From contig JAJPWX010000126.1 of NCBI GenBank assembly GCA_021205755.1, positions 1 to 64,000 on the forward strand: a stretch of DNA of 64,000 nt, in the 5' to 3' direction. The position numbers and the translations under genes were made by a program. Below are positions 13,138-64,000 of the stretch, piece by piece (the first letter of the stretch is position 1; the number at the start of each line of letters is the position of its first letter). This DNA comes from Lachnospiraceae bacterium (GTDB taxonomy: Bacteria > Bacillota > Clostridia > Lachnospirales > Lachnospiraceae). The notes under the pieces were generated by a model, which had not been told where the DNA came from, did no database searches, and was given only the letters and a program-made list of their open reading frames with translations.

Positions 13138-14685
13138 TTATCCTATATACTCCGCGAAGAACGCGAGCGCGGTGTTGACTGCGTTGACAACGGCGCCGGA
13201 GGAAGTGGACGCACCGGATACAGTGTCAATCTCATTTTCTTCGGTGGAAGAGCCGGACTTGTTCAGGATGAATGCATCGGTATTGACGCCATCGAACTGG
13301 CTCTTAAACGCATCCTCGTCTACCCGCATACCCATACCGGCAGTTTCATTCAGCGTTGTAAAGGCGATCTTAATGACAGTACCGTCTGTGGTAAGGCCGA
13401 CAGAGAGGGTGATATCTCCTTCAAAGCCATCGCCGCTGGTGACGCTAATTACATAACCAACGATCTCGTCGTTATCGTCATAGCCGACCAGTACGTCGTT
13501 GATGTAGGTCTTTCCGAACGTAGAGGTGTCATATGCTTCGCCTGCGAGCGCTTCCACTGCGGCATCCAGATCGGAGTCATACTGGAAAGAAGCTGCATCC
13601 GGGCATACCTCGAGGTAAGATTCCTGGTTGGCTGCGATTTCCTGTTCCTCGATCTTGGTCTTTGTCATGGCGTACACGCCGCTTAAGAGCAGACCAGCGA
13701 TCAGAGTGATAACCGTCAGATTGATGGCAGCTTTCGGAAATTCACGCTCTTTGTACTCGCCGCCATTGTAGCCCAGTGGTTTCGGAATTGGCAGCTTATC
13801 AATAAACGGAACAAACATATTGGAAATTATGATGGCATAACTGAAGAAGTCCGCGGACGAACCGTACACGCGGAACAGTCCGGCCAGTAGGCCAATGATC
13901 GCTCCATAGAGAATATGTCCGCGGGAGGTTACCGGACTGGTAACGGGGTCAGTCGCCATAAAGAAGGCGCCCATCAGCAGGCCACCGCCGCAGATCTGGG
14001 CAATCAGATAAGCAGGCACAAAACCGCCTTCTCCGAAAAGCCCCATAAAAAGGGTAAAGACGGCGATACAGGAAACCGGAATTTCCAATGTGATGCCTCC
14101 GGCTACCCACAGGTAGAGTCCGCCGATCAGCAGGGCTACTGCAGAGCTTCCGATGACGCCATTGGTGGAGCCTAGATAGAGCTTTGCAACATTAATGGTA
14201 TCTCCTGCGTTCAAAGCCGCAAGCGGAGTCGCGGAGCTGATGCCGTCGACGCTGTAATTGGTCATAGCTGTTCCAAAAGAAATCAGAAGGAAGCAACGGG
14301 CTGTAAGCGCCGGGTTCAGGAAGTTTTTGCCAAGCCCGCCAAAAAAACACTTTACAACGAGGATGGCGAAGATGCTTCCAAGTATCGGCAGGTACAGAGG
14401 CGCTTCTGGCGGGAGCGTGAGTGCCAGCAGAAGACCGGTCACCACTGCGCTGCAGTCTTTTACGGTGTTTGGCCGTTTGGCAATTCGATCAAAGAGATAC
14501 TCAGAAAGAACAGCGGAGCCGACTGAGAGCAGAATCACCAGCAGGGCATGAAGCCCGTAATGTACGACGCCGACAATCGTCACAGGCATCAGCGCCAGCA
14601 CAACATCAAGCATGACCTGTCCGGTCGTCAGTTTGCTTCGGATGTGAGGGCTGGAAGAAATATTCAGTAACTTGTTTTCATTCAT
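13138..14685 (-). CDS. RnfD-RnfG fusion protein
   Basis: One uninterrupted 515-codon frame joins two normally separate subunits. Residues 1 to about 310 are RnfD: nine or so membrane helices and the covalent FMN motif DGISSATPLA, with the expected flavinylated Thr at about 153. Residues about 320-515 are RnfG: one membrane helix (AAINLTVITLIAGLLLSGVYAM), an extracytosolic domain, and the flavin-transferase target DTVSGAST near 490-494. In most Rnf operons rnfD and rnfG are adjacent separate genes, so this looks like loss of the intervening stop. A sequencing frameshift could mimic it, but the joint reads as a clean linker with no overlap debris. Confidence 0.9.
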   Translation of the reverse strand: MNENKLLNISSSPHIRSKLTTGQVMLDVVLALMPVTIVGVVHYGLHALLVILLSVGSAVLSEYLFDRIAKRPNTVKDCSAVVTGLLLALTLPPEAPLYLPILGSIFAILVVKCFFGGLGKNFLNPALTARCFLLISFGTAMTNYSVDGISSATPLAALNAGDTINVAKLYLGSTNGVIGSSAVALLIGGLYLWVAGGITLEIPVSCIAVFTLFMGLFGEGGFVPAYLIAQICGGGLLMGAFFMATDPVTSPVTSRGHILYGAIIGLLAGLFRVYGSSADFFSYAIIISNMFVPFIDKLPIPKPLGYNGGEYKEREFPKAAINLTVITLIAGLLLSGVYAMTKTKIEEQEIAANQESYLEVCPDAASFQYDSDLDAAVEALAGEAYDTSTFGKTYINDVLVGYDDNDEIVGYVISVTSGDGFEGDITLSVGLTTDGTVIKIAFTTLNETAGMGMRVDEDAFKSQFDGVNTDAFILNKSGSSTEENEIDTVSGASTSSGAVVNAVNTALAFFAEYIG

Positions 14686-55250: not shown

Positions 55251-55279
55251 TTGCATTTGATTTGCGATTATGTTAATAT
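55251..55279 (+). promoter_or_regulatory. Promoter of tRNA-Leu copy 1
   Basis: TTGCAT (55251-55256) and TAATAT (55274-55279) have a 17-base spacer, about 35 bases before the tRNA. No comparable promoter precedes copy 2. Confidence 0.5.
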
Positions 55280-55314
55280 AGTCGAGTGCTGTGGAGCAAT
55301 CCAGTGCACATTCA

Positions 55315-55396
55315 GCCGCTGTGGCGGAATTGGCAGACGCACTTGACTCAAAATCAAGCGGGTAATACCGTGCCGGTTCGAGTCCGGCCAGCGGCA
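55315..55396 (+). tRNA. tRNA-Leu (anticodon CAA), copy 1
   Basis: This 82-base gene has acceptor arms GCCGCTG and CAGCGGC with discriminator A. The anticodon stem CTTGA/TCAAG surrounds the loop CTCAAAA (anticodon CAA, codon UUG). It has a class II variable arm and the T-arm GCCGGTTCGAGTCCGGC. CCA is not encoded. Confidence 0.97.
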
Positions 55397-55538
55397 CACT
55401 ACAGACTCATTTTTGTGGCGATAAACGTTGCAATAATGGGTCTTTTCATTTCTATAATATCTCTGATTATTGATAATATTTCGCTTGATTTTCTCCGAAA
55501 AAAACACCTAATCAAGTACACAAAAAAAGGAGAAAATC

Positions 55539-55588
55539 ATGAAAAAATCAGCATGGCAAAAAAGGACAATCTGACGATCGAAGATGCT
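55539..55588 (+). pseudogene. Integrase N-terminal stub
   Basis: AAAGGAG and ATG 55539 match the intact integrase at 57535, but one A is missing, which shifts the frame. After GAAGATGCT the sequence changes completely. This is the remains of a second integrase copy. Confidence 0.85.
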
Positions 55589-55818
55589 GAAAGACAGTGA
55601 ACTGGTCGGGAAGGTACATTCGTCTGTTTATCATCAATGCCAGAAGCGCGGCTAAGCTGCGCCTGTGGACGTCCGCTTCATTTATAGAAAGTTTACAGAG
55701 AAATTTTGAAAATACGTTGACTTTCCCATCTGGTTTGCATATAGTTGCAACAACAGTACCCGACACGCCTCTCAACGATGCGGACCACGTCGGGATCGCA
55801 TTGGAAAGCATTAAATAA
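55584..55818 (+). pseudogene. Fragments of mobile-element genes
   Basis: Two short reading segments lie here. MLKDSELVGKVHSSVYHQCQ (55584-55655, stop after KRG) resembles a small protein I associate with Lachnospiraceae conjugative elements. A second frame, ending at 55818, reads NTLTFPSGLHIVATTVPD. Neither is complete. They are joined directly to the integrase stub, as expected from deletion between two elements. Confidence 0.4.
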
Positions 55819-57036: not shown

Positions 57037-57309
57037 TGCGCATATGCACTTTTGAGTGTTCGTGTGATTTTGCCTGTTCCTGGCCGAGGATACTATCTAC
57101 GTTTGCGCAGACTGTCCGCAACTCTTTCTGATAGTCGCGGAAATAATGCCAGGTGTCGGTTTGTGCCTGCTTCTGGACGGTGAGCCTGTCGCGTTCTTCC
57201 TTCAAGGCTTTCATAGTCGGGAACCGGCTGTCAGGGAATTGCGCTTTCAGATATTTGCTCGGCGCTTTCTTCCTTAAGTTAATGACATTGCTTAAATTCA
57301 ACGTTTTTA
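57032..57309 (-). pseudogene. C-terminal fragment of a mobilization relaxase
   Basis: On the minus strand the last about 75 codons read APSKYLKAQFPD, MKALKEERDRLTVQKQAQTD, TWHYFRDYQKELRTVCANVD and SILGQEQ. This fits the coiled-coil tail of relaxases from Firmicute conjugative and mobilizable elements as I remember them. The frame runs upstream into the tRNA-Leu gene at 57310, where coding cannot be real. The relaxase is therefore cut exactly at the tRNA boundary. Confidence 0.55.
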
Positions 57310-57391
57310 GCCGCTGTGGCGGAATTGGCAGACGCACTTGACTCAAAATCAAGCGGGTAACACCGTGCCGGTTCGAGTCCGGCCAGCGGCA
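57310..57391 (+). tRNA. tRNA-Leu (anticodon CAA), copy 2
   Basis: It is identical to copy 1 except for one T to C change in the variable arm, with all stems intact. It lies 143 bases upstream of the complete integrase gene and marks the left boundary of the current element. No clear promoter precedes it. Confidence 0.97.
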
Positions 57392-57585
57392 CACTACAGA
57401 CCCATTTTTGTGGCGATAAACGTTGCAATAATGGGTCTTTTCATTTCTATAATATCTCTGATTATTGATAATATTTCGCTTGATTTTCTCCGAAAAAATC
57501 ACCTAATCAAGTACACAAAAAAAAGGAGAAAATCATGAAAAAAATCAGCATGGCAAAAAAGGACAATCTGACGATCGAAGATGCT
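57310..57585 (+). repeat. tRNA-Leu plus integrase 5' end duplication, copy 2
   Basis: This is the counterpart of 55315-55588, about 276 bases long. It includes the tRNA, the integrase leader and the first about 17 codons of the integrase. Confidence 0.9.
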
Positions 57586-58476
57586 TTCGCACAGTTCGTA
57601 AAGAAGTGTCGCATCAAAAACCTCTCGGACAAAACCATTCTTGATTATGAAACCAAAATGATACGGTTCTACAATTTCATTGAAAAAACGGAACCGGTTT
57701 CAAGCATTTCCGAGGAAACTATCGACGATTTTATACTTTCCTTACGCGACGAAGGTGTCAAGGACATCACCATCAATTCGTACCTGCGTAGCATCCGCGC
57801 CTTCTTGTACTACTGCATGGAGTGCGACTACATCGCTCCGAGTTTTAAAGTGCGGCTTCCGAAGGCAGAAAAGAAAATCAAGGAAACTTACTCGGATGAT
57901 GAACTGGAACGGCTCTTGAAAAAGCCTGACACTGATACCTGTTCTTTCAGCGAATATAAGACTTGGACTTTTGAAAATTACCTGATCGGTACAGGCAATC
58001 GTATCTCGACGGCTCTGAGTATCCATATCAGTGATATTGATTTTGAAAACGCAACAATCACGATTCGGAAGACGAAAAACCGGAAGCAGCAGATTATCCC
58101 GCTCTCACACTCTTTGAGCGAGGTACTGCGTGACTATCTTGTTATTCGTGGCGGGGATCCGGAGGACTTCCTGTTTTGTAATGACTACGGGGCCGAAGCA
58201 AGCGAACGGACATATCAGCAGTTAGTTCAGCGGTACAATATCAAGCGTAACGTCAACAAAACGAGTAGTCACCTGTTCCGGCACACGTTTGCGAAAAAAT
58301 GGATTCTGGCCGGGGGCGACATCTTCCGTTTGCAGAAGATCCTCGGACACAGCGACTTGTCTGTGACAAAGGAATATGTCAATATGTTCGGGCAGGACTT
58401 ACAGATGGATTTTGAAAAGTTCAATCCTCTTGATACTCTCTCTCAGAAGACAAATAAAAGTGCAATCAGAATGTAA
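57535..58476 (+). CDS. Tyrosine recombinase (integrase)
   Basis: The 313 residues have a SAM-like N-terminal DNA-binding domain (about 12-100) and a catalytic domain. Visible catalytic residues are the first Arg in GTGNRISTAL (about 155), HLFRHTFA (H-x-x-R, about 247) and LGHSDLSVTKEYV with the nucleophile Tyr (about 282). AAAGGAG precedes ATG 57535. It sits just downstream of tRNA-Leu, the typical place for an integrase of a tRNA-targeting element. A terminator ends its transcript. Confidence 0.95.
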   Translation: MKKISMAKKDNLTIEDAFAQFVKKCRIKNLSDKTILDYETKMIRFYNFIEKTEPVSSISEETIDDFILSLRDEGVKDITINSYLRSIRAFLYYCMECDYIAPSFKVRLPKAEKKIKETYSDDELERLLKKPDTDTCSFSEYKTWTFENYLIGTGNRISTALSIHISDIDFENATITIRKTKNRKQQIIPLSHSLSEVLRDYLVIRGGDPEDFLFCNDYGAEASERTYQQLVQRYNIKRNVNKTSSHLFRHTFAKKWILAGGDIFRLQKILGHSDLSVTKEYVNMFGQDLQMDFEKFNPLDTLSQKTNKSAIRM

Positions 58477-58533: not shown

Positions 58534-58998
58534 ATGAATAACGATACATTAGATACTTCACTAAAGGCAATCCGCGAGTCGATGAACGCAATCTCACAGC
58601 AGATGCAGGAATATGAAGCGATCCGCGTCGCGCAGAATGCAGCAACGCTCGAACTAATGGGCAAACTTAATGACACAGTAAAAGAAATGGAGCAAAACAG
58701 CCTGAAGACAGAAGGGCGTCTCAATGCACTCTCTGCCGGAGTGATGGAACTGCTCGGAGATCGGATTGACGATAAATACAATTACTACATGGCTTTGGGT
58801 TATATTCCCGCTGACGAAGTGCACACGTTTGATAATCTCTATTTTGCCTACGCCGCTAACGGTGGCAACGGCAAACGCGCAAAGAAATATCAATATGTAA
58901 TGGACAATCTACAGCATAAGGAGGATAGAGATGAATTACGACAATCTACTATTACGCCGATTGGATGCAATGCTGTCGCGCGAAGGACATGCGGCTAG
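58534..58998 (+). CDS. Small phage-type coiled-coil protein
   Basis: The 154 residues start with a long helical or coiled-coil region (about 1-75). The segment YYMALGYIPADEVHTFDNLY then YAANGGNGKRAKKYQYVM resembles a short domain common in phage holin-region or tail-fibre-associated proteins (ENLY.AY..LGGNG). TAAGGAGG precedes the ATG. The last about 22 codons overlap the next gene in another frame. A stop may have been lost there, because the family motif ends near MDNLQHKED. The function is unknown. Confidence 0.6.
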   Translation: MNNDTLDTSLKAIRESMNAISQQMQEYEAIRVAQNAATLELMGKLNDTVKEMEQNSLKTEGRLNALSAGVMELLGDRIDDKYNYYMALGYIPADEVHTFDNLYFAYAANGGNGKRAKKYQYVMDNLQHKEDRDELRQSTITPIGCNAVARRTCG

Positions 58999-60103
58999 AA
59001 ACGTGATAACTGGTGATAAAGACACAATCCTGTTTCGGCGCAGCAATGCGACCGGAAGTCAGGAGCAAGTAACATTGTACTATCACAACGACAATTTTAT
59101 ATCTAAAGGCGATATTGTGTCCTATAACGGCGCAAATTATCTGACAATTAACAAGGCCCACTGGGAGAGTGACGCTCACTTCAAATCTAACGCGATCAAA
59201 TGTAATCAGGTCTGGTATCTGCCAGAAACAACTATCCCTGTACTCGTGGAGGAACTACAACAGGCACAGCCAACCGTGGGTAGCGTCATAACGACGACAG
59301 ACGGTTATGTGCAGGTACGCACTACGGATATCGAGTATTTTCACACGGATTTTCCGACAAACATACAGGTAAATATCTGGGGCGGCGCTTACTATCTCGT
59401 AAACAAGTATTTTCTGGACGGCGTTTGCTACCTGTATTTTGTGCGTGAAACTGCAAGTATGACTCTTTCGCCGGAACTCACTTGTAATATAAACGACTAC
59501 TATTCAGCAGGAGATACTATCACCCTACATCCTTATGTGACAATGACCTACTCTGACACAATTATTTATGTGCCGGATGCAACTTTTACGTTCGAATCTA
59601 ATGATGAGGAAACGGCTGTTTGTGAAGACCACATCATTTATCTCTTACAGGATGGCTCTCCTATTATTACCATTACAGCGACAGGCACTTATGAGACTGG
59701 CAGTGTGGGCTACACAGATATCTCACTGTATAAGGAAGTCACGCTCAATGTAGACAGCAGTTCCAATGGACTCAAGATGTCTTTAAATACGACTACTGGA
59801 GACACTACTATTAAAATTGGTGGCTCCTATAAGACAATAATTGCAAGTTTTACAGATGCGAATGGCGAAGACGTGACAGAAGCCACAATAGCCGACATGA
59901 CCACAGAGGATTTTGTCTGGGCATTTACGATTGACGGCGAAGACGCAAGTGACCAGATTACTACTACTACAGTGGACGGCTCGGTAAACTATTACAGAGT
60001 CAAGTACGGCAGCGATAAGACATATATTACCAAAACCTTACTGGTAACGTGTATCTGTGGAGATATGACTGCTACGTTAGAGTTTACGATAGCGGCAGTT
60101 TAA
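58931..60103 (+). CDS. Putative phage structural protein with Ig-like C-terminal domains
   Basis: The 390 residues from ATG 58931 follow AAGGAGG. The N-terminal part (MNYDNLLLRRLDAML, SKGDIVSYNGANYLTIN) resembles phage head-tail adaptor or neck proteins. The C-terminal two thirds are beta-rich, Thr/Ser-rich, and built from Ig-like segments (GDTITLHPYVTMTYSDT; TTGDTTIKIGGSYKTIIASF). I do not recognise a specific family. The hairpin array begins at its stop codon. Confidence 0.6.
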   Translation: MNYDNLLLRRLDAMLSREGHAARNVITGDKDTILFRRSNATGSQEQVTLYYHNDNFISKGDIVSYNGANYLTINKAHWESDAHFKSNAIKCNQVWYLPETTIPVLVEELQQAQPTVGSVITTTDGYVQVRTTDIEYFHTDFPTNIQVNIWGGAYYLVNKYFLDGVCYLYFVRETASMTLSPELTCNINDYYSAGDTITLHPYVTMTYSDTIIYVPDATFTFESNDEETAVCEDHIIYLLQDGSPIITITATGTYETGSVGYTDISLYKEVTLNVDSSSNGLKMSLNTTTGDTTIKIGGSYKTIIASFTDANGEDVTEATIADMTTEDFVWAFTIDGEDASDQITTTTVDGSVNYYRVKYGSDKTYITKTLLVTCICGDMTATLEFTIAAV

Positions 60104-61140
60104 AAAATGTCGACAAAATTCAAACTTGGGAAATTCAATAAATTAGCGGATTTCCGAAGACGGTTTCCGTTTTTCCCTTAATGAAAGGGAAATAAGGGAG
60201 CGACTATAAAAAAGTAGCGAAATCGAAAACTTCGGAAATTCAGTAAATTAGCGGATTTCCGAAGACGACGACCGTTTTCCCCTTAATGAGAGGAAACTAA
60301 AAAAATTAAAACTTCGGAAAACCATTAAGCTAGCAGATTTCCGAAGCCAGTTACTGTTTTCCCTTTAATGAAAGGAAATAATCAAAGTAATTCATTAAAT
60401 GTTACGGTTTGATAAAACTTAGAAAATCAGCAAAAGAGCGGATTTCAGAAGGCGGTTGCCGTTTTCCTCTTAATGAAAGGATAATCAGAGCAATTAAAGA
60501 AAATGTCGACAAATCAAAATCTTCAGAAATTCAATAAATTAGTGGATTTCCAGAGACAGTGACCGTTTTTCCCTTAATGAAACGAAAATGTCACGGAAGC
60601 CTCGTCGTCGGAAAACCGCTAATTTATTGAATTTCCCGAGTCGGATGCAATTTTGTAAATAATGAAAGGAAAATACAAAAAGCCAGTGACTAAAATGTTA
60701 ACAAAACCTTGTCGCGGGAAATACAGCAAATTAGCGGATTTCCAGAGCCGGGTGCAGTTTTCCTTCTAATGAAGGGGATATAAAGAGGCACGTTTAAAAA
60801 TGTGGATAGAGCCTCGTCGCAGGAAACTCAATAACTTCAAGGATTTCCGAGGACGAGTGCAGTTTTACCTCTAGTGAAGAGAATATACAAAAAGTATTCT
60901 GCCAAAAATGTTACGAAAGTTTCATCTCCGGAAATCCAATAAATATGCGTGTTTCCGAAGGCGACGACCGTTTTCCCCCTTAATGAAAGGAATATACAAA
61001 GTATAGTACATATATATTTTTTTGCGTGTAATGTTACCGCACAAAATTTAGGAAAAGCCTCGTCGCGGGAAAATCAGTAAATTAGCGGATTTCCGAAGAG
61101 AGAGACCGTTTTCCTCTTAGTGAAAGGAAATAAAAAAAAC
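60104..61140 (+). repeat. Array of ten degenerate two-hairpin repeats
   Basis: This stretch of about 1,040 bases has no gene. It consists of ten related units with first-hairpin starts near 60125, 60230, 60312, 60418, 60521, 60608, 60712, 60817, 60926 and 61063, so mostly about 105 bases apart. Each unit has up to three parts. The first is AAAATGT(N)AC, seen in eight units. The second is hairpin 1, with a GGAAA/TTTCC core stem and a 15-base loop usually ending AAATTAGCGG. The third is hairpin 2, with left arm TTTCC, loop near TTAATGA and right arm GGAAA. The unit at 60230-60264 has a perfect 10-bp hairpin 1 (CTTCGGAAAT/ATTTCCGAAG). In the unit at 60608 the loop is inverted. Units differ in sequence while keeping the stems. 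It is not CRISPR, because repeats are degenerate and the intervening sequence is itself repeated. Confidence 0.9.
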
Positions 61141-61165
61141 AGTCCGGTTTATCCCCGGACTTTTT
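61141..61165 (+). terminator. Terminator closing the hairpin array
   Basis: AGTCCGG (61141-61147) pairs with CCGGACT (61155-61161), followed by TTTTT. It would end any transcript crossing the array before the scaffold gene. Confidence 0.9.
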
Positions 61166-61247
61166 ACATACAAACACATAGCAACTGGGGCGCAATCCCG
61201 AACTGATGTTACCAGGGCGGCGCAGCGCAACAGAAAGGAGACATATC

Positions 61248-61739
61248 ATGACAATAGAAGAAATGAATTTAACAGAAGAACAGACTGCGGCTGTCCAAAA
61301 ACTTATCCAGTCGGAAACCGACAAGGTGAGAACGGACTACAGTAACAAACTCAGGGCGGCAAATGACGAACTGAACAAATACAAACCGCAGGAAAAAAGC
61401 GACACAGAAATCGCACTTGAGGAACGCCTGGCGCAACTCGAAGCGCGAGAAGCGGAAATTGCAGCGAAGGAAAAGACGCAGCAGATCTCCGCGAAACTTA
61501 AAGACGCAGGTTTACCTGCTGAGTTAAGCCAGTATCTCAGTCTCGGCGACAATATCGACGAGGGGATTAATCAGATTAGCACAGCACTCGGCGGCTTTTT
61601 TCTCGCAAACGGCAACAAGCCCGGCAATCATCAGACAAACGCCGGACTCACAAAAGCCGATTTTGCGAAGATGGGTTACGCCGAACGCGCACGGTTATAT
61701 CAGGAGAATCCGCAACTATATCAGGCACTCAGCAGATAA
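61248..61739 (+). CDS. Phage capsid assembly scaffolding protein (DUF4355/GP20-like)
   Basis: ATG 61248 follows AAAGGAG. The 163 residues have a central coiled coil rich in Glu, Lys and Ala (about 20-80: TDKVRTDYSNKLRAANDEL, LEERLAQLEAREAEIAAKEK). The C-terminal segment is LSQYLSLGDNIDEGINQIS...FAKMGYAERARLYQENPQLY. This is the usual layout of siphophage scaffold proteins encoded directly upstream of the major capsid gene, as here. Confidence 0.8.
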   Translation: MTIEEMNLTEEQTAAVQKLIQSETDKVRTDYSNKLRAANDELNKYKPQEKSDTEIALEERLAQLEAREAEIAAKEKTQQISAKLKDAGLPAELSQYLSLGDNIDEGINQISTALGGFFLANGNKPGNHQTNAGLTKADFAKMGYAERARLYQENPQLYQALSR

Positions 61740-61769
61740 CTATACACCTAAAAAGGAGTGATACATATT

Positions 61770-62630
61770 ATGGCAACAGTTAATACTAATCTTATTGTAC
61801 CAGAAGTATATGCAGAATTGGTGCGCGAAAAAATCGCGGGCCGCGTTCAGGTCGGTCAGTTTATGAAAACTGTCAGCACGCTTCAGGGTAATGTCGGCGA
61901 AACCGTTACATTCCCATATTGGGCCTATATCGGCGACGCTGAGGATTGGACAGTTGGCACCGCAATGGACGCAACCCAGATAAAGCAGACAACTACTACA
62001 GCGGCGATTAAAGCAATCGCGGCTCCTGGTGTGGAAGTCTATGACTATGACGATCAGGTGGCAATGGGCAACGCGCTCAATGAAGCAGCGTCTCAGCAGG
62101 CAATCTCAATCGCTCGCAAAATTGACACGGATGCAATTGCGGCGGCTTACACCACACCGCTTAAGGTCGCTCTGGCGGATGCAACCGCAGTGACACAGGA
62201 CGAACTGCTTGCGGCTCTCGGCGTTTACGGGGACGAGCGGGACGCTGCAGATTTTTCCAACGGCGCGATTGTGATGCACAGCACTTTTGCATCGTCTTTG
62301 TACGGGATGGATCTGTTTACCAGTCGTGAGCGCACTACAGTAGCATCCGGCAGCGATAACGGCATTACCAAGAACGGAGTCATTGGCTCTTTCCTTGGCA
62401 TTGACGTTGTGCTGAGTGACCGCCTGTACGATGCAACAACGCAGGAAGCATTCATTCTCTTTGTGAAAAACGACTCTATTGGTTGGATTCCCAAAGAAGC
62501 ACCTTTTGCTGAGGCTGCGCGTGATGCATCCAAACGTCTGACAACGGTTTATTGCAGTGAGTTCTATGCTCTTTCCCTGCTGCGCGAAGACGGGATCGTG
62601 CTGCTTAAGGGCACTTTGCCATCTGCATAA
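61770..62630 (+). CDS. Major capsid protein, N4-gp56-like family
   Basis: ATG 61770 follows AAAAGGAG. The 286 residues begin MATVNTNLIVPEVYAELV and contain VTFPYWAYIGDAEDW, DYDDQVAMGNALNEAASQQAISIA and IVMHSTFASSLYG. The end RLTTVYCSEFYALSLLREDGIVLLKG is typical of HK97-fold capsid proteins of the N4-gp56 type. The scaffold gene lies 30 bases upstream. No terminase, portal or protease gene lies between the integrase and this gene. Confidence 0.85.
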   Translation: MATVNTNLIVPEVYAELVREKIAGRVQVGQFMKTVSTLQGNVGETVTFPYWAYIGDAEDWTVGTAMDATQIKQTTTTAAIKAIAAPGVEVYDYDDQVAMGNALNEAASQQAISIARKIDTDAIAAAYTTPLKVALADATAVTQDELLAALGVYGDERDAADFSNGAIVMHSTFASSLYGMDLFTSRERTTVASGSDNGITKNGVIGSFLGIDVVLSDRLYDATTQEAFILFVKNDSIGWIPKEAPFAEAARDASKRLTTVYCSEFYALSLLREDGIVLLKGTLPSA

Positions 62631-63112: not shown

Positions 63113-63187
63113 TACAAGTTAAGATCATTCCATCAATTGTTACCAGACTGCGAGAGTTATCTCGCCCGAATGGTAACAATAATGGAA
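63095..63187 (+). promoter_or_regulatory. Pseudoknot-like RNA structure over the start of the last gene
   Basis: GAGATAACT (63095-63103) is the exact reverse complement of AGTTATCTC (63155-63163). ATTGTTACC (63136-63144) is the exact reverse complement of GGTAACAAT (63172-63180), extended by TTCCAT/ATGGAA. The two pairings cross, as in a pseudoknot. AACTTG/CAAGTT (63100-63105, 63115-63120) competes with the first. The start codon at 63170 or 63182 lies within the structure. Confidence 0.6.
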
Positions 63188-64000
63188 CACAGTTATTTAA
63201 AGAGACTACCACAATGGTACACGAACAATGAAACAGAATATGATTTAGTTCTATCGGATGATCTTGATGGACTTGTAGCAACAGCCGCTATTAAATCAGC
63301 AAACACAGATTGGCACGTCAATTACTTTTATGATTTTGACGGCCTGTACATATGTAAAAAAATACAGAATAAGAAAAATAAATCCGCCACAAGAGTTTGG
63401 ACGGACATTGCCTATATAGGCAATGAAATGACATTTGACAATCACGTCACACTGGCATCTGCACAAGATTCTTATAATCGGTTATCAATAAATCCCAATA
63501 TATTTGGAGACAAAACAGTGTCAAACGAAAATTATTATGACAAATACTGCGGTTCGACCGCGCTGATGGTATGGAGTATTTACAATTTACCTTTACCAGA
63601 AAGCGAATTAGGGAAGATGCTATTATTAGCAATTGATTCGACTTTTAAAGGATATTATGCTGCGGCTAAGTGGCATGACCTTAACAAGCATTTTATCATT
63701 GATGTATTCGGATTCGAAGACCTTTATGCTGTGCAGCAGCGACATACGGAAAAAGAATTTTTGCAATTGGCAGGTCAGTATCAGATTAATCGTAAGATTT
63801 ATATGAATAACGGAAAAATAAAATCGGAATTAGATATTGCGTTGTTGTCCGAATTACTGGGCATTGATTTATCTTTGCCTTTAGACGATTTTATCAACTT
63901 TGCAAAATTTGAATCTACAACGAAAGAATCTTCTTATACCGGAAGATATATAAAAAATATGTCAACAGATAACATACTAACAGCGGCTTTTACAGGAAAA
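63170..64000 (+). CDS. DHH-like phosphoesterase candidate, cut by the window end
   Basis: The frame is open from ATG 63170 (alternative ATG 63182) through the last base, more than 275 codons. The segment DLVLSDDLDGLVATAAIK near residue 24 followed by WHVNYFYDFDGLY recalls the first Asp motif of DHH-type proteins. WTDIAYIGNEMTFDNHVT near residue 83 could be the Asp-Asn-His counterpart of the DHH box. The remainder (CGSTALMVWSIYNLPLP, ELGKMLLLAIDSTFKGY) is unfamiliar. It is probably a phage-encoded phosphoesterase or nuclease acting on nucleotides or DNA ends, but this is a guess. No good ribosome site is seen upstream, and the start is buried in the structure described above. Confidence 0.55.
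   Translation, partial: MVTIMEHSYLKRLPQWYTNNETEYDLVLSDDLDGLVATAAIKSANTDWHVNYFYDFDGLYICKKIQNKKNKSATRVWTDIAYIGNEMTFDNHVTLASAQDSYNRLSINPNIFGDKTVSNENYYDKYCGSTALMVWSIYNLPLPESELGKMLLLAIDSTFKGYYAAAKWHDLNKHFIIDVFGFEDLYAVQQRHTEKEFLQLAGQYQINRKIYMNNGKIKSELDIALLSELLGIDLSLPLDDFINFAKFESTTKESSYTGRYIKNMSTDNILTAAFTGK

Follow-up and report, generated by a model that had tools for sequence, protein, structure and literature searches.

Why would a phage-like element carry ten tandem copies of a short unit immediately ahead of its capsid genes? The question is raised by a locus of a Lachnospiraceae bacterium, studied here in a window of 64,000 nt (by the window we mean the whole stretch of DNA analysed, positions 1-64000 of a contig that stops at 71902). 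The repeat search revealed an array at 60104-61132 made of ten copies of a 90-nt unit, all in the same direction, nine of which share 62-83% identity with the reference copy over 90 nt. On the plus strand, units 1 to 10 lie at 60104-60193, 60209-60298, 60291-60380, 60396-60485, 60500-60589, 60585-60674, 60692-60781, 60797-60886, 60905-60994 and 61043-61132, and their successive starts are 105, 82, 105, 104, 85, 107, 105, 108 and 138 nt apart. No ORF of 60 aa or more was found inside the array, and one 80-aa minus-strand ORF (61082-61324) overlaps its end. The repeat and ORF searches agree with the first-pass annotation, which had described ten units, mostly about 105 nt apart, in a gene-free stretch of about 1 kb. 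It had also placed a terminator and then capsid genes behind the array, and the terminator search did detect an intrinsic terminator-like hairpin at the array end (61141-61161, plus strand), with the scaffold and major capsid genes downstream. A CRISPR array was rejected on the identities given above and on the lack of a constant short repeat.

The far end of the element lies beyond the sequenced part of the contig. At its near end ARAGORN found a tRNA-Leu(CAA) gene (57310-57392, plus strand), which we presume to be the attachment site because the integrase gene comes directly after it. This tyrosine integrase (57535-58476, plus strand; Pfam PF00589, 1.7e-31) is 67% and 62% identical to its counterparts in two relatives. 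Two more phage-type genes lie between the integrase side and the array. Sequence comparison indicated that o390, directly 5' of the array (58931-60103, plus strand), encodes a virion-type protein; its relatives are 24-29% identical and one of them has a Big_2 match under the curated cut-off. Downstream of the array follow, in order, genes for a capsid scaffold protein (61250-61739, plus strand; phrog_172, 3.4e-14), the major capsid protein (61758-62630, plus strand; phrog_544, 1e-37), an HTH protein and the DHH-like protein o312. The scaffold start was set from the sequence at 61250, downstream of a leader described below, while the ORF list has 61206. The o312 gene (63137-64000, continuing to C70:64075) shows DDxDS, D, DNH and D motifs that resemble those of DHH phosphoesterases; it had no match in Pfam, PHROG or NCBIfam, and a PDB sequence search gave nothing useful. 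Past the window end come a TerS-like gene (named by its position before TerL and without a family match), TerL, an SPP1-type portal and a repressor-like gene.

With its own scaffold, capsid, portal, TerL and TerS-like genes and no tail family (no match among the 14 element ORFs scanned in the sequenced part), the gene content is like that of cf-PICIs, and on this content the element looks like a capsid-forming satellite. In satellite scale, capsid, portal and terminase genes and the lack of a recognised tail module it resembles, by gene content, the cf-PICIs and the Streptomyces satellites MiniFlayer and MulchRoom, while the accessible part of that account mentions no such array (PMC10690885). 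Among the relatives introduced below, one weak tail match (E 1e-5) was seen among six late ORFs of G312, and a tail-fibre-like gene (E 1e-12) is present in L041, which has no array. Read by eye, the tRNA-Leu and its flanks seem to be duplicated about 2 kb apart (about 55268-55600 and 57250-57540) with a Transposase_31-like gene between the two copies, which may reflect an earlier insertion there.

The main idea of the first-pass annotation was that the array holds many copies of a structured non-coding RNA whose stems are maintained by compensatory change, and stems that seemed to be replaced by another complementary pair had been taken as selection on structure. Both example pairs, CCTTC/GAAGG and CTCT/AGAG, are present in the sequence and the stems exist, but four tests (pair counts with covariation, arm swaps, folding and RNAalifold) were negative. 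Paired cells make up 75.3% in the ten units, a level that 110 of 500 shuffles matched (74.2 ± 1.1), and the covariation check that had been proposed gave 0.133 against 0.116 ± 0.016 (82 of 500 as high). Slid versions of the structure were lower, with at most 65.3% pairing and 0.110 covariation, an excess that is expected when a structure is derived from the same sequences. Swapped arms were as good as the original ones in 970 of 1000 trials for hairpin 1 and 400 of 1000 for hairpin 2. Three units do fold well (z-scores of -3.9, -3.2 and -1.9), the other seven ranging from -1.74 to +0.41, and across 43 units of ten elements, defined below, the mean folding z was -0.62 on the plus strand and -0.59 on the minus strand. 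RNAalifold gave no consensus pair on 39 units; it should be noted that the MAFFT alignment misplaces part of the unit (motif B, below) in some of them. In the best inverted repeat of each of the 43 units the mismatches were 13 G.T and 13 A.C, hence no excess of wobble pairs. Selection on a palindrome at the RNA level ought to leave wobble pairs and a bias between the strands; neither signature is seen here, and a structured RNA is unsupported.

It should also be noted that with the 43 units pooled, the own arms of hairpin 1 beat the swapped ones (as good in 13 of 300 by RNA energy and 2 of 300 by inverted-repeat score), as expected if the units of one element share ancestry. This advantage, the single orientation of the units and the terminator behind the array would all suit an RNA. 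Set against the lack of covariation inside the array, of a consensus fold across elements and of a strand bias, and against a dyad centre that by reading differs between the window's own units and those of Anaerostipes type, they leave a structured RNA very improbable.

A separate hairpin, outside the array, is well supported. It lies at 61186-61239 on the plus strand, 46-99 nt past the stretch 60104-61140 and just 5' of the scaffold start, and has the layout AGGG-P1-AACU-loop-AGGG-P1'-AACU. In 15 of 17 leaders (those of L034 and L062 were not parsed) the P1 strands pair with a mean of -4.8 kcal, a value reached by none of 2000 swaps (-1.9 ± 0.47). Among 13 distinct sequences the paired share of cells is 84% (63.0 ± 2.6 after shuffling), both sides differ in 36 cells (11.7 ± 2.6) and covariation reaches 0.504, against 0.149 in shuffles and at most 0.084 in slid versions. 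Folded one at a time, nine leaders adopt a common overall shape whose internal loops are symmetric GG/AA (z -0.9 to -4.4). With a covariance model the leader was found (E below 0.02) in 21 distinct loci, with or without an array, either at the scaffold start or a little ahead of it; the training set accounts for 14 of them (L054 had been omitted as too long and L055 as a near copy), L056, L043, L054, L062 and L034 were new, and L055 and L057 are copies. Weak matches were seen at the same place in L092, L036 and L090. The leader was detected in 2 of 329 genomes of the family and had no gathering-level match in Rfam. We suggest that this covarying RNA ahead of the capsid operon is probably a site through which the head operon is controlled.

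Relatives of the element were found through the capsid protein in named genomes, viral contigs and other genomes. The named ones are an uncultured Lachnoclostridium (L032), an uncultured Clostridium (L033), Konateibacter massiliensis (L034), Anaerostipes sp. MSJ-23 (L035), Lachnospiraceae RUI453 (L036) and Enterocloster alcoholdehydrogenati (L037), and the capsid proteins of the listed relatives are 35-73% identical to that of the window. In 12 of 21 loci, the window's own counted, the stretch 5' of the scaffold gene is long, gene-poor and repetitive, so related arrays, which the first-pass annotation had made a point to look for, do exist at the same place in relatives of the capsid satellite. 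Their nucleotide sequences have drifted far: when the window's array was compared by blastn with the other 11, the best E was only 0.059. Further blastn searches found no other copy in the own genome, best E values of 0.3 and 0.08 against phage and plasmid records, and, in 60 relatives, two matches outside the own genome (G031 and G054) which we read as chance. Five matches in an exact-pattern scan of viral contigs were also read as chance, and the first viral scans with single proteins gave nothing useful. A class-wide scan of 391 genomes with sequence model R1 (built from 37 of the 43 units plus two units ahead of o390) returned E ≤ 0.01 in 123, but among the matches listed no cluster lay outside the own genome and they were read as noise. 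Rfam had no gathering-level match in the array or in the scanned arrays of relatives, the best weak match being MIR7504 with 31.6 bits against a gathering score of 83. The earlier statement that no such repeat had been described is in line with the Rfam result and the lack of a convincing phage or plasmid match, and searches of the accessible literature, which includes few subscription journals, turned up no description of the array, these satellites or the leader.

Small ORFs lie between the units in some relatives and the units are tandem imperfect palindromes, as in integron attC sites. Further, G189 has an insert of about 9 kb with a second integrase adjoining its repeats. Recombination sites that carry gene cassettes, or alternatively packaging or replication iterons, might thus be considered. 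No shared core was seen by eye at the ends of the listed units, no integron integrase was identified, and the arms do not coevolve in the swap test. The first-pass annotation had suggested attC-like use by the nearby integrase, which has no support, given the missing core and the presumed insertion site at the tRNA-Leu 2.7 kb upstream. As to packaging and replication, 5.4 kb separate the array from the TerS-like gene, and the replication-type proteins vary between elements while the array stays. Taken together we consider this whole class of explanations hardly probable. Sequences like tRNA 3' ends (GGTTCRAATCC-like) were noticed by eye between array and scaffold gene in L064 (about 3450), L043 (about 3850), L030 (about 4130) and, on the reverse strand, L090; they are possible internal attachment cores.

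To see what the arrays share, an unsupervised (EM) motif search was applied over the 12 repetitive stretches. It resulted in two motifs. Motif A, ccttAAA.cCAgTaaTTt.acgg.tTTt, is a near-palindrome of about 25 bp with the core AAAnCC..GGnTTT. Motif B, ..TaTAtGAAgga.., is purine-rich and strand-specific; it reads, for example, TTAATGAAAGG in the window's element and CTATAGGAGAGA in an Anaerostipes relative. The unit set consists of 43 A+B pairs of at least 16 bits from the 12 array regions; these come from ten elements, as L030 and L054 gave no pair at 16 bits although both hold repeats. B starts 34-39 nt after the start of A (33-41 searched). In the window B always follows at 37 or 38: in units 1 to 10, A lies at 60127-60154, 60232-60259, 60314-60341, 60419-60446, 60523-60550, 60608-60635, 60715-60742, 60820-60847, 60928-60955 and 61066-61093, and B at 60164-60191, 60269-60296, 60351-60378, 60456-60483, 60560-60587, 60645-60672, 60752-60779, 60857-60884, 60966-60993 and 61103-61130.

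The bipartite unit was recovered when single elements were held out. With the window's element held out and spacing left free between 20 and 60, 8 of its 10 units were found at a spacing of 37 or 38, with no match elsewhere on the plus strand of 13.8 kb and two on the minus strand. Leaving out one element or clade at a time recovered 38 pairs within the ten arrays (31 spaced by 35-39, again free from 20 to 60), against 9 matches elsewhere on the plus strand (three upstream of o390 and two at array edges) and 20 on the minus strand of the whole loci; the unit positions themselves were taken from a motif search that saw every element. L090, which was outside the training, holds four sense-strand units within 0.9 kb and none on the other strand. 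The arrays lie between the integrase/o390 side and the scaffold gene, and at 18 bits every array match is on the plus strand.

The two motifs differ in kind. Motif A matched 69 times forward and 80 times in reverse (shuffles 10.8), and motif B 88 times forward and 21 in reverse. Unit 6 carries its first palindrome (60603-60641) in the opposite orientation to that of unit 1, with 92% complementarity over 39 nt, a feature absent from the first-pass annotation. Motif A thus behaves as a DNA dyad, since its half-site letters are conserved, its reverse complement matches equally well, wobble pairs are not in excess and one copy is turned around.

Such a dyad in many copies could be an operator for a repressor or for zinc-ribbon proteins, and ten copies of the operator would soak up the regulator as the satellite replicates. 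The fast divergence between elements with the architecture kept would suit titration of this kind. A plain decoy needs neither B nor its fixed distance, however, and no gene family (of those present in at least four loci) is restricted to array-bearing elements; the integrase occurs in 12 of 12 array-bearing and 3 of 9 array-less loci, and o312 in 11 of 12 and 3 of 9. We hold a plain decoy to be improbable. A decoy or regulator of phage factors had also been among the suggestions of the first-pass annotation: its RNA form has no support here, while a multi-copy site acting on phage factors comes close to the reading we favour below.

One gene family does separate the two kinds of loci, by its absence. 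ORF clustering placed a phrog_8308-type gene in none of the 12 array-bearing loci and in 8 of the 9 array-less ones, several contigs being partial and one of the eight (L055) a near copy of L033. The proteins have 892-1116 aa in the capsid-family loci, and DxDxD and RxP are invariant across nine aligned sequences. We take the DxDxD to resemble the metal loop of cellular RNA polymerase. A PDB sequence search gave nothing useful for this protein and NCBIfam no match. Among 14 control genomes the family was detected in Bacillus subtilis only. The SPbeta prophage of B. subtilis encodes the RNA polymerase YonO, a single-chain relative of the cellular enzyme (PMC5467207), and we infer that the match is yonO itself. 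From these motifs and this match phrog_8308 looks like a family of YonO-type RNA polymerases. It occurs in 20 of 200 genomes of the window's family, the own genome included, where an 846-aa YonO-like polymerase is encoded at C52:22066-24465 (L127:15883-18423). This gene adjoins a 3674-aa ORF and an integrase-like gene, and the stretch is a possible helper. The array hosts G312, G189 and G613 have no phrog_8308 gene, hence their helper would have to come from outside.

To investigate the polymerase genes themselves, a unit model trained on the arrays alone was run on the stretch behind 29 of them: 18 of 25 rows from other genomes (seven short or partial ones were omitted), the own-genome gene, nine capsid-family loci and SPbeta. 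For six of the 18, the chosen frame end is over 600 nt from the beginning of the stretch and could be something other than the polymerase stop. A sense-strand unit of at least 8 bits was detected in 6 of the 29 loci (8.2-26.7 bits), with a mean of 0.43 (at most 3) in dinucleotide shuffles, one on the antisense strand and 7 in 233 later windows (Fisher p 0.0011); at 10 bits the count was 4 of 29 against 0.22 in shuffles. The units start 26, 28, 31, 66, 67 and 69 nt behind the polymerase stop. Among the six are SPbeta yonO (69 nt, 9.8 bits), a prophage of the window's genus in G026 (26 nt) and L063. The test was partly non-blind, as the L063 unit was known beforehand and SPbeta was added later; dropping both leaves 4 of 27, to be compared with 7 of 233 (p 0.018). 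The own-genome polymerase has a weak match of 6.2 bits, first noticed by eye, 28 nt behind its stop and with a spacing of 36. In 23 of the 29 loci no unit of at least 8 bits was found within about 100 nt of the stop, and these include L033, L040, L041, L060 and L042 of the same capsid family.

Because of their position, direction and fixed spacing, the dyad A, the exclusion of the polymerase gene from array-bearing loci and the units behind polymerase genes, our preferred reading, to which we give somewhat less than even confidence, is that the array is made of ten tandem late transcription-start modules of YonO-type polymerases, carried by a satellite that lacks the enzyme. Single modules past a polymerase stop and ahead of phage genes suggest that A+B may be a late promoter, or a regulator site plus a start site. 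The satellites without a polymerase gene would then carry an array of these modules ahead of the head operon; upon infection by a helper the array would recruit the helper's polymerase, which would drive late transcription of the satellite and be drawn away from the helper's genes. The computation shows the unit with its spacing, orientation and position, its exclusion with the polymerase gene and the excess of units close behind such genes; promoter function and capture of a helper enzyme are what we infer. If arrays do capture a helper's polymerase, they would be a transcription-level form of phage piracy, whose fast divergence suggests an arms race. The fuller version, in which the satellites lost their own enzyme and multiplied its promoter into a bank of about ten for a foreign YonO-type polymerase, with A+B as the first consensus for the family from SPbeta to Lachnospiraceae phages, is a speculation we regard as doubtful. 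Against the late-promoter reading stand the 23 unit-less polymerase loci, the three array hosts without a polymerase and the coincidence of B with ribosome-binding sites, and it also leaves the need for ten copies unexplained. A conventional sigma-70 promoter array was rejected, as promoter-like sites equal those in shuffles.

The overlap of B with ribosome-binding sites deserves more room. Units lie directly 5' of o390 in L034 and L061, a position that in itself counts for a promoter, and B is there the ribosome-binding site of this gene. All ten B motifs of the window hold an ATG (8) or GTG (2) at one fixed place, and the purine run of B contains an SD-like 4-mer in 30 of the 43 units, against 19.8 ± 2.7 with the run shuffled. 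An ATG follows within 17 nt after B in 19 of the 43 (9.0 ± 2.7 expected). As B serves o390 as ribosome-binding site in these two loci and has an ATG after it in 15 of 18 Anaerostipes-type units, B may be a translation signal. Lambda-bar-like minigenes were rejected, since very short ORFs after B were by reading found in the Anaerostipes-type clade only.

Further, zinc-ribbon ORFs or fragments lie between units in L034, L032, L061, L062, L043, L064 and L090. In L034 (8086-8286, 8225-8587 and 5656-5853), L061, L062 and L090 some of them have in-frame stops or no start codon. The L034 ORF at 8086 starts at an ATG inside B, and an in-frame ATG in B is also present for a second L034 ORF, whose frame is open further upstream, and for one L062 ORF. 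The unit might then be the front end of a small gene, a control site A with a ribosome-binding and start module B, which was duplicated in tandem while the coding parts were lost; the zinc-ribbon ORFs would be survivors, and the window would keep only front ends and tiny ORFs. This is the main rival to the late-promoter reading because several relatives have such ORFs between their units, of which one at least starts inside B. We nevertheless find it unlikely. The zinc-ribbon patterns applied matched in none of the own, L035, L038, L039, L030 and L054 arrays, and in the first four A and B are still in register. An ATG downstream of B, present in 15 of 18 Anaerostipes-type units, occurs in just 1 of the window's 10. 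Lost small genes also leave the units behind polymerase genes and the exclusion of the polymerase gene unexplained.

Two known systems bear on the late-promoter reading. In phages P2 and P4, the small zinc-finger proteins Ogr and Delta act with a dyad about 50-55 bp upstream of the late starts, in a satellite-helper setting. The present arrays are alike by description in their zinc-finger proteins, dyad site and setting, and tandem arrays are not known at the P2/P4 late promoters. The second system is SPbeta itself, where a unit candidate can be set beside a mapped start. According to the paper that described the enzyme, the late genes of SPbeta form a single operon, which YonO reads from a start site upstream of yonK, mapped to position 2225998 of B. 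subtilis 168, and the promoter sequence was left for later determination (PMC5467207). The A+B unit is a concrete candidate for this promoter. We found unit-like sites behind yonO (9.8 bits, above) and, with 13.7 bits, as one match in the gene-free 1.68-kb gap between yonN and yonK (59152-60834; L165:7153-8835), so the correspondence with the mapped start is at the level of the gap (PMC5467207). SPbeta has no ten-copy array, and within 32 kb other matches reach 14.4 and 14.0 bits on the sense strand, with one of 14.1 bits on the opposite strand; since these are equally strong, the 9.8- and 13.7-bit matches are weak evidence.

Two minor observations were made along the way. The yonN gene is annotated as encoding a DNA-binding protein, and by eye an HU-like ORF was seen beside the array in L032. 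In the window's own element, two similar inverted repeats of 31-33 nt flank the terminase-portal part, at C70:64303-64386 and 70142-70217 (L008:7303-7386 and 13142-13217).
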